Virus record (IMG/VR): IMGVR_UViG_3300025449_000055
Location: 1-23,614 of that record
Length of the DNA stretch: 23,614 nucleotides
Reading direction: 5' to 3' (one strand)
Source of the DNA: a virus
Below are positions 4,486 to 6,091 of the stretch, piece by piece. Position numbers and translations under genes: made by a program. The notes beneath the pieces were generated by a model that searched no databases, had not been told where the DNA came from, and was given only the letters and a program-made list of their open reading frames with translations. Positions within the stretch are counted from its first letter, which is position 1. The number at the start of each line of letters is the position of its first letter.

Positions 4486-5203
4486 AGACATAGCTTTTCG
4501 CAGGTTGCTAGATCATTATTATCTGCATGAAGCACCAATAAAACAAAGAACAATTGCTAGACAAATTCGTATGAAAGATTACGAACAGGAAGTGCTATCT
4601 GTTTTAGATGAATTCTTTCGAGATACACCAGATGGATATATTCATCCAAGAGCAGATGAGGAAATTAAGAAATTTAGGGAACATCAAGGTATTTCTTCTT
4701 TTGGAAGTTTTATCAGAGATAACCCAAATTTGAAACATTTAGTAAACAAATCTAGGTATATTCATTACTTTAATGAGGGTAAATTAGAGGAATATTTAGA
4801 CACTTTAAGGTCACATGATGGGTACATGATGGGTACATCAAGGGTACTTGATGCAACCAATAACCAAGAACCAATAACCAATAACCATATATATATGGAT
4901 TTTGAAAAAGTTCTGAAAGCCAAAAACAAACCCTTAACTCAAACCTTGCTTAACTCTATTCAAAAAGAAGCAGATAAGGCAAAGATCAGTTTAGAAGATG
5001 CCATTAAGGAGTGTTGTTCAAGAGGTTGGACAACATTTAAAGCTGAATGGATTGCTAACAAAGCTGACATTGTTCATCAAACAGTTCCATCAAGCTCAGA
5101 ACGTGATCCTGTTCTTGTTAAGCTAGAAGAAGATGCTTTGAAGGCAGTATCAATGCCTGATGATGTTAAGGCTAAATTTAAGATGTTAAAGGGGGGCAAA
5201 TGA
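4421..5203 (+). CDS. DUF1376-type phage replication initiator
   Basis: A 260-aa protein. Residues 1-90 match the DUF1376/YdaU-type winged-helix domain found at the N-terminus of phage replication proteins: MHYYNFHIGDYQSHTHHLT, EDIAFRRLLDHYYLHEAPI, then an ADEEIKKFREHQ helix. The middle (about 130-160) is a low-complexity linker, whose DNA carries the tandem repeats described separately. The C-terminal part has KISLEDAIKECCSRGWTTFK AEWI, a DnaT/replisome-organiser-like helix set. It probably binds the phage origin and recruits host helicase. The start is supported by family conservation and AAGG four bases upstream. The stop overlaps the methyltransferase ATG. Confidence 0.85.
   Translation: MHYYNFHIGDYQSHTHHLTVIEDIAFRRLLDHYYLHEAPIKQRTIARQIRMKDYEQEVLSVLDEFFRDTPDGYIHPRADEEIKKFREHQGISSFGSFIRDNPNLKHLVNKSRYIHYFNEGKLEEYLDTLRSHDGYMMGTSRVLDATNNQEPITNNHIYMDFEKVLKAKNKPLTQTLLNSIQKEADKAKISLEDAIKECCSRGWTTFKAEWIANKADIVHQTVPSSSERDPVLVKLEEDALKAVSMPDDVKAKFKMLKGGK
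4816..4848 (+). repeat. Three 11-bp tandem repeats inside the replication gene
   Basis: TGATGGGTACA occurs twice in direct succession (4816-4826, 4827-4837), followed by a degenerate third copy TCAAGGGTACT (4838-4848). Eleven is not a multiple of three, so each copy is read in a different frame and gives different amino acids. The repetition is therefore at DNA level. I regard these as candidate iterons for the initiator encoded by the same gene. Confidence 0.7.
4855..4889 (+). repeat. Five 7-bp tandem repeats followed by an AT run
   Basis: The units are AACCAAT, AACCAAG, AACCAAT, AACCAAT and AACCATA, directly adjacent. An alternating (AT) run follows immediately. Seven is also out of phase with codons, so the peptide (TNNQEPITNNH) is only partly repetitive. 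Together with the 11-bp array six bases upstream, this gives the lambda-like plan of repeats inside the initiator gene next to an easily melted region. Confidence 0.75.
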
Positions 5204-5931
5204 ATGAGTTGGCTTTATTCGCAGGCGCTGGTGGAGGAATACTTGGGGGACATTTGCTTGGATGGCGAACAGTCTGTGCCGTTGAATGGGAACCCTACCC
5301 AGCAAGCGTATTGTGCGCCAGACAAAATGACGGACTTCTCCCGCCTTTCCCGATTTGGGATGACGTACAAACCTTTGATGGGAAACCTTGGAGAGGAATT
5401 GTTGACGTTATATCGGGAGGATTTCCTTGCCAGGACATTAGTTCAGCAGGAAAAGGCGCAGGAATTGACGGAGAACGATCAGGAATGTGGGGAGAAATGG
5501 CAAGGATCATTCGTGAAGTACGACCCAAATACGTCTTTGTGGAGAACTCACCAATGCTCACTTCTAGGGGACTTGGACGAGTTCTCGGAGACTTGGCCTC
5601 AATGGGGTTTGATGCGAAATGGGGAGTGTTGGGAGCAAAAGACGTTGGGGGAGTTCATCAGCGAAACAGAATTTGGATTGTCGCTTCCCACAATAGTCAA
5701 GTCAGATTCAAACGCAACATCAAAAAACCGTTATTTAAATTCAAGCCATTTCCGTGGGGCAAAGATGTCAGAGGGATTGAGGACTTGCGAAACAGATCCG
5801 ACCTCAGTCCATCCGTCATTTGGAGAAAAGACTATGGGCTGGCCGACTATGTGGACAGGGTTAGCGCCATTGGAAATGGACAAGTTCCTAGAGTGGCAGC
5901 AACAGCATGGAATATCCTAAGTGAAGATTGA
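5200..5931 (+). CDS. dcm: Short DNA (cytosine-5) methyltransferase
   Basis: A 243-aa protein with ordered C5-methyltransferase motifs: motif I ALFAGAGGGILGG (SAM binding), motif IV SGGFPCQDIS with the catalytic Cys at about 77, motif VI VFVENSP (about 113-118), motif VIII HQRNRIWIVAS (153-163), and motif X AIGNGQVPRVAATAW (223-237). It transfers methyl to C5 of cytosine, probably shielding phage DNA from host restriction. It is shorter than usual (typically 300-400 aa): only about 60 residues separate motifs VIII and X, so the target-recognition region is minimal and a standard motif IX is hard to see. It starts at an ATGA overlap. A long second frame is open through the gene. Confidence 0.92.
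   Translation: MNELALFAGAGGGILGGHLLGWRTVCAVEWEPYPASVLCARQNDGLLPPFPIWDDVQTFDGKPWRGIVDVISGGFPCQDISSAGKGAGIDGERSGMWGEMARIIREVRPKYVFVENSPMLTSRGLGRVLGDLASMGFDAKWGVLGAKDVGGVHQRNRIWIVASHNSQVRFKRNIKKPLFKFKPFPWGKDVRGIEDLRNRSDLSPSVIWRKDYGLADYVDRVSAIGNGQVPRVAATAWNILSED
5204..5920 (+). CDS. Overprinted protein in a second frame of the methyltransferase gene
   Basis: A 238-aa reading frame, +1 to the methyltransferase frame, that begins 4 nt after the methyltransferase start and ends 11 nt before its stop. It starts MSWLYSQALVEEYLGDICLD and ends with MGWPTMWTGLAPLEMDKFLE followed by WQQQHGIS. From memory, both ends match phage proteins listed as hypothetical beside cytosine methyltransferases ('GWPxGWTxLxPLETDKFxxW'). 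AAAGGGGGG is spaced 7 nt from this ATG, better than the 3 nt to the methyltransferase ATG, and the stop abuts the next gene's GTG (TAAGTG). It may be a real overlapping gene or a frame kept open by the constraint on the methyltransferase. Confidence 0.45.
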   Translation: MSWLYSQALVEEYLGDICLDGEQSVPLNGNPTQQAYCAPDKMTDFSRLSRFGMTYKPLMGNLGEELLTLYREDFLARTLVQQEKAQELTENDQECGEKWQGSFVKYDPNTSLWRTHQCSLLGDLDEFSETWPQWGLMRNGECWEQKTLGEFISETEFGLSLPTIVKSDSNATSKNRYLNSSHFRGAKMSEGLRTCETDPTSVHPSFGEKTMGWPTMWTGLAPLEMDKFLEWQQQHGIS

Positions 5932-6091
5932 ACTCATTGTCGAGCACTATGCCAAACTAGCAATCAAACCTGCTTGGCTTGACTATGTTCGTCAACAAGT
6001 TAAGCTAATGGAACAAGAACCTGCTTTTCATGGAATAGGCAAACTCATTGCCCTAAGAATTAAGGAACTCAATGCTCATCGTCATGTTTAA
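5921..6091 (+). CDS. 56-aa helical protein with GTG start
   Basis: Translated by hand: GTG start, then KIELIVEHYAKLAIKPAWL, DYVRQQVKLMEQEPAFHG, ending RIKELNAHRHV. It is basic and likely all helical. The GTG begins directly after the stop of the second-frame reading of the methyltransferase gene and overlaps the methyltransferase end by 11 nt. GGA lies nine bases upstream. The next gene, rusA, starts inside its last 20 bases. It fills an otherwise empty 140-base gap. Function unknown; possibly an accessory to RusA or the methyltransferase. Confidence 0.6.
   Translation: MKIELIVEHYAKLAIKPAWLDYVRQQVKLMEQEPAFHGIGKLIALRIKELNAHRHV

Follow-up and report, generated by a model that had tools for sequence, protein, structure and literature searches.

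A phage C5-cytosine methyltransferase that is probably divided between two overlapping reading frames

The best reading of a locus in a viral sequence from IMG/VR (23,614 bases; hereafter the window, meaning the whole stretch of DNA that was analysed) is that two polypeptides, encoded in overlapping reading frames, make up a single C5-cytosine methyltransferase, a reading to which we assign a probability of roughly 0.85. The first polypeptide, alpha, is read in frame 0 and comprises 243 amino acids, and the second, beta, is read in the +1 frame and comprises 238. The arrangement would be a natural split of the M.EcoHK31I kind in which the specificity half is overprinted and carries exchangeable recognition modules, and which appears to be widespread in phages and prophages. 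We also consider it likely, with somewhat less assurance, that the locus represents a large and old phage family of obligate two-frame methyltransferases. The catalytic and specificity halves would be encoded in different frames, each protein would be half ancestral and half overwritten on its partner, cassettes would be exchanged between phages as DNA that is open in both frames, and the overprinted half of beta might have an extra role.

An earlier note on this DNA, made from the letters alone, had described a long +1 open reading frame (ORF) running through a methyltransferase gene and beginning 4 nt after its start, and the particulars of that description were borne out. The run of G that precedes the start codons ends at position 5196, which places it 3 nt from the alpha ATG and 7 nt from the beta ATG, the beta stop codon (5918-5920) abuts a GTG at 5921, and the DNA encoding the frame-0 motif X (GNGQVP) reads EMDKFL in the +1 frame. 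This GTG starts a 56-amino-acid ORF on the plus strand (5921-6091) that overlaps the alpha stop codon. Coordinates of the features of the locus are compiled in Table 1.

Table 1. Features of the two-frame methyltransferase locus, in coordinates of the window.
Feature	Coordinates	Strand	Basis or remarks
Alpha, frame-0 C5-methyltransferase ORF with motifs I-VIII and X (ATG 5200 to stop 5931)	5200..5931	+	PF00145 match; hhalign to ordinary C5-methyltransferases
Beta, +1-frame ORF with target-recognition region and motif IX position (ATG 5204 to stop 5920)	5204..5920	+	phrog_1008 match; open in all homologues; constraint tests
Shared start region	5188..5206	+	Purine-rich AAGGGGGG, then ATGAATG, in which the start codons of the two frames are offset by 4 nt
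Dual-coded part, frame-0 motifs I-VIII over the N-terminal half of beta	5204..5685	+	Constraint in both frames
Target-recognition region, +1-constrained	5684..5806	+	Single module in this phage (LPTIVKSD...)
Motif IX position, +1 frame	5807..5863	+	VHPSFGEKTMGWPTMWTGL; family consensus LNPxWVEWLMGWPxGWTDL
Motif X (GNGQVP), frame 0	5872..5889	+	Frame 0 less divergent after motif IX

Alpha matched PF00145 (E = 1.8e-33) and phrog_363 (7e-61), with the PF00145 match confined to residues 4-180. Alignment of alpha to ordinary C5-methyltransferases with hhalign placed motifs I-VIII at residues 3-169 (E 2.8e-26) and motif X, weakly, at residues 219-237 (X alone E 0.4), while a model of motif IX scored at most 2.8 bits in alpha. 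Beta of this phage matched phrog_1008 (E = 4.7e-16), as did beta of other clades with values up to 3.3e-44 (the clade of Paenibacillus phage Lily). In our reading, phrog_1008, labelled 'DNA methyltransferase', is the family of the beta subunit.

The earlier note had proposed that the +1 ORF could be a widespread overprinted gene, and had named depletion of stop codons in the +1 frame and suppression of synonymous-site variation in the methyltransferase as the signs by which such a gene would be recognized; both were found. Homologous loci (80 in total, 60-100% identity) were retrieved by the methyltransferase frame alone, and the +1 frame was open over the whole gene in 80/80, such that no locus with a +1 stop was found among those retrieved in this way. 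The +2 frame of the same loci contained 9-24 stops per gene. Zero +1 stops were detected in 81/81 sequences, versus an expectation of 4.8 from synonymous codon shuffles within the gene and 9.5 from resampling of the codon usage of the window; summed over the 81 genes, the shuffles predict that 0.155 genes would be open in the +1 frame. The open +1 frame is real and far beyond chance.

Wobble entropy at conserved amino acids with fourfold codons was 0.79 bits versus 1.79 expected, and several fourfold wobble sites were invariant across 57-66 sequences. Because each frame-0 wobble position falls on the second position of a +1 codon, this suppression is left unexplained by constraint on the frame-0 protein. 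The ratio of divergence at frame-0 codon position 3 to that at position 1 was 1.35-1.5 at 5-15% divergence, versus 3.3-3.9 in flanking genes. Further, transversions at frame-0 position 1 that alter the frame-0 amino acid occurred at a rate of 0.0348 when silent in the +1 frame versus 0.0053 when not (83 independent pairs); substitutions that affect the +1 protein are rare.

The Paenibacillus phage Lily clade, in which the +1 ORF begins approximately 180 nt inside the methyltransferase gene, provided an internal control. There, the position 3/1 ratio was 0.99 in the part under the +1 ORF versus 2.39 in the rest of the same genes, and frame-0-silent changes that would create a +1 stop numbered 0/522 inside the overlap versus 40/205 outside of it. 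In this clade, the onset of constraint coincides with the start of the +1 gene. As an external control, 30 ordinary C5-methyltransferases (from the genus of G001, the Pseudomonas genome that contains locus L187) had +1 stops in the numbers predicted by their shuffles, and none of the 30 matched the beta profile. Shadow similarity, whereby the +1 translation of any conserved methyltransferase would resemble beta, was dropped based on this lack of matches. Collectively, these observations show that both frames are protein-coding.

To compare how constraint is apportioned along the gene, it was cut at motif VIII, at the motif IX position, and at motif X, and amino-acid divergence was determined for both frames in 60 independent pairs. 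Regions were delimited by regular expressions, so the comparison covers 179 loci rather than all of them, and the pairs were selected for similarity in the +1 frame. Over motifs I-VIII, frame 0 was the less divergent in 60/60 pairs (sign test p = 1.7e-18), with N/S ratios of 0.10 in frame 0 and 0.21 in the +1 frame, which indicates that both proteins are constrained there. Over the recognition region, the +1 frame was the less divergent in 56 of the 57 informative pairs and frame 0 in one (p = 8e-16), and over motif IX the corresponding numbers were 48 and 3 (p = 2e-11). After motif IX, where motif X is located, frame 0 was again the less divergent: it had the lower value in 48 of the 50 informative pairs and the +1 frame in two (p = 2e-12).

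The N/S rate ratio of the +1 frame in the recognition region was 0.08 (0.0087/0.1089). No amino-acid constraint was detectable in frame 0, either in the recognition region (N/S rates of 0.0100/0.0053) or in motif IX (0.0044/0.0036). A bias arising from the choice of pairs by +1 similarity was considered and set aside, since pairs selected by nucleotide similarity and free of gaps gave the same outcome for the recognition region and motif IX: the +1 frame was the less divergent in 17/17, with a ratio of 0.03, and frame 0 exhibited rates of 0.0029/0.0047, which on these small counts indicate no clear constraint. Changes that create a stop were not seen in either frame in the region tests, as would be expected if alpha must be read through to motif X. 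These results show that constraint passes from frame 0 to the +1 frame after motif VIII and returns to frame 0 for motif X. Unlike in PF00145 enzymes, the TRD and motif IX would be carried by a polypeptide other than the catalytic one, as the constraint at these positions is in the +1 frame.

This distribution of constraint bears on the reading that frame 0 encodes a complete, working methyltransferase, with the +1 ORF giving rise to an independent overprinted protein, for example a regulator or antagonist. Constraint on both proteins over motifs I-VIII and the matching of PF00145 by frame 0 alone would both fit such an arrangement, but a complete C5-methyltransferase must recognise DNA through its recognition region and motif IX, which is where frame-0 constraint is missing, and the PF00145 match stops at residue 180. 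We therefore regard this reading as improbable. The cytosine methyltransferase that the earlier note had placed in frame 0 is upheld for motifs I-VIII and X but not as a whole enzyme, since neither the recognition region nor motif IX shows detectable frame-0 constraint. That note had also suggested that the +1 product is a partner or an antagonist of the methyltransferase; the former is favored in that the +1 frame holds the constrained recognition region and motif IX position, and the latter found no support. Since these two regions are constrained in the +1 frame and not in frame 0, the partner, beta, is most likely the specificity subunit.

In 149 of 178 distinct sequences, the start codon of alpha precedes that of beta (ATG) by exactly 4 nt. 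Loss of the alpha start at this spacing in the other 29 might suggest translation of beta only, an interpretation that was rejected since in most of these an ATG for alpha is present 13-22 nt upstream. The beta ATG is preceded by a ribosome site in most loci, and in the Lily clade, where beta has an internal start, a ribosome site is nearby in most loci. An alternative is that programmed ribosomal frameshifting fuses frame-0 motifs I-VIII with the +1-encoded recognition region and motif IX in one polypeptide, and the collinear order of the functional halves in different frames is what such a product would require. However, motif X would be reachable only if the ribosome shifted once more, back into frame 0, the product would lack the N-terminal half of beta although this half is constrained in the +1 frame (N/S 0.21), and beta has its own conserved start in addition to the internal ribosome sites of the Lily clade, which together make frameshifting less probable still than a complete frame-0 enzyme. 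Given the separate starts and ribosome sites, and that frameshifting would take two shifts, independent initiation is the simplest route, and we infer that beta is made from its own start. Lastly, that the +1 frame is untranslated and open merely as a by-product of frame-0 composition or of DNA-level constraint has a negligible probability: high-GC homologs are sometimes open in +1 by chance (several P 0.15-0.43), but the shuffles, the wobble suppression, the contrast between +1-silent and non-silent changes, and the internal and external negative controls all reject it.

In profile comparisons, beta aligned to ordinary C5-methyltransferases only at their motif IX, and weakly (E 0.09-0.31), and few beta proteins scored above noise with a motif IX model. 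The alignment is collinear in the template, with motifs I-VIII from alpha, IX from beta, and X from alpha. The identity of motif IX in beta would thus rest mainly on position, pattern, and constraint. A simple pattern search of the recognition region identified 0-5 modules of approximately 30-45 amino acids, each with a WPTP-like beginning, and modules resembling one another occupy different places in the arrays of different loci; the phage studied here has one. Among 4,560 pairs, 3,530 were >85% identical in the catalytic part and <35% identical in the recognition region of beta, and loci can be 98% identical in the former and <25% identical in the latter. The recognition region varies in the manner usual for an exchanged specificity cassette.

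No confident fold was obtained for beta in two AlphaFold runs (pLDDT 53 and 68.5), and fold searches yielded no match in the PDB and nothing usable. Sequence matches of beta in the PDB (3nng, apolipoprotein E) were at chance level and were discarded, and no match was detected in Pfam, NCBIfam, or PADLOC. The possibilities that beta is a homing endonuclease, a defence protein, or a known domain were likewise considered, with no match found.

The functional model that these sequence-based observations suggest is as follows. Alpha would supply the SAM-binding and catalytic motifs I-VIII together with motif X, and beta would supply the variable target-recognition modules and motif IX. The active enzyme would be a complex of the two proteins, with its sequence specificity determined by beta. 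Each protein may have one half derived from an ordinary methyltransferase and another half newly written over that of its partner, with the stretch of alpha over the recognition region being a tolerated linker that need only be free of stops. In a phage, the probable role of the enzyme is to shield the viral DNA from restriction by the host, and a swap of recognition cassettes would change its specificity.

Homologs of phrog_1008 were identified in 17 of 299 sampled genomes from the phylum of G001; the 14 well-known control genomes, 10 of which carry C5-methyltransferases, contained none. Of the phrog_1008 loci examined in genomes, nearly all are in the +1 frame of a C5-methyltransferase, and a free-standing beta gene lacking the methyltransferase was not found among the loci examined. 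GenBank annotation of these loci is inconsistent. In Pseudomonas phage phPA-G, the +1 frame alone is annotated, as hypothetical, and in Paenibacillus phages Lily and Bloom both frames are annotated; beta of Lily carries the note 'g62 internal gene' and beta of Bloom is named cytosine methyltransferase. A published table gives DNA-cytosine methyltransferase for both gp62 and gp63 (PMC6070908). No publication treating the pair as one dual-frame enzyme was found among openly licensed papers, and the lone match to phrog_1008 in that literature was to phrog_10089 and was discarded.

Several loci depart from the common arrangement. In two loci with identical sequence from two metagenomes (L141, at about 2987-2997, and L145), the frames shift at an 11-nt C tract located downstream of motif VIII, such that motif X of alpha is in the +1 frame and the recognition region and motif IX of beta are in the +2 frame; this might reflect phase variation at the C run or an assembly error. 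Beta of L144 (2501-2986) stops after 161 amino acids, before the recognition region and where alpha is still open, possibly through loss of the C-terminus or an effect of the contig end. Five bacterial loci (L172, L174, L178, L205, and L212) have a single stop in the alpha frame, which in L172 is in motif IV, and an intact beta; these may be decayed prophage genes or sequencing errors. In L226, both proteins are broken by a shift inside the gene that brings the downstream portion of alpha in line with the N-terminal portion of beta. A DNA relative of the pair from Salmonella phage S9-5 is carried by four of 5,426 complete Escherichia coli genomes (H202-H205), where a cytosine methyltransferase is annotated and no separate beta is among the feature names listed.

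If our reading is true, alpha and beta form a same-strand overlapping pair of phage genes that is both very long and very widespread, and that offers an internal control on how two frames share constraint. It would also explain the inconsistent annotation of these loci and would mean that phrog_363 and phrog_1008 constitute one enzyme. Cloning or codon-optimising from the annotated frame alone would then destroy the DNA-reading subunit, and predictions of specificity for these enzymes would have to use the +1 frame.

The closest known counterpart is M.EcoHK31I, the small-subunit gene of which is reportedly nested in an alternative frame of the large-subunit gene. M.EcoHK31I is a C5-methyltransferase of two polypeptides (Lee, Kam and Shaw 1995, cited in PMC3404938), of which the large subunit comprises motifs I-VIII, motif X, and the predicted TRD and the small subunit comprises motif IX (PMC3404938). 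Alpha resembles that large subunit, by its published description, in having motifs I-VIII and X and lacking IX, and the weak alignment of beta at motif IX alone (E 0.09-0.31), if it marks a true motif IX, would parallel the location of this motif in the small subunit. In contrast, the predicted TRD of M.EcoHK31I is in its large subunit, whereas the recognition region here is constrained in beta and not in alpha; the pair described here is also spread over phages and prophages, its beta can span all of alpha, and it has up to five modules. M.AquI is another naturally split C5-methyltransferase (PMC3404938); its small subunit contains half of the variable region and motifs IX and X, whereas here motif X is in alpha and beta is encoded inside the alpha gene. 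The descriptions of phrog_363 (alpha) and phrog_1008 (beta), both labelled DNA methyltransferase, are silent on both being read from the same DNA.

An out-of-frame ORF within a phage methylase gene is also known from the ShiLan-type HNH endonucleases (PMC11855218). That system is similar to ours in its placement within the gene, but it is an inserted homing endonuclease, whereas beta lacks any HNH match and is superimposed on the conserved catalytic core. The multi-specific C5-methyltransferases of SPbeta and phi3T contain variable tandem TRDs between motifs VIII and IX, in the catalytic frame. The loci described here share the variable tandem modules between motifs VIII and IX, but differ in that the modules are read in the +1 frame.
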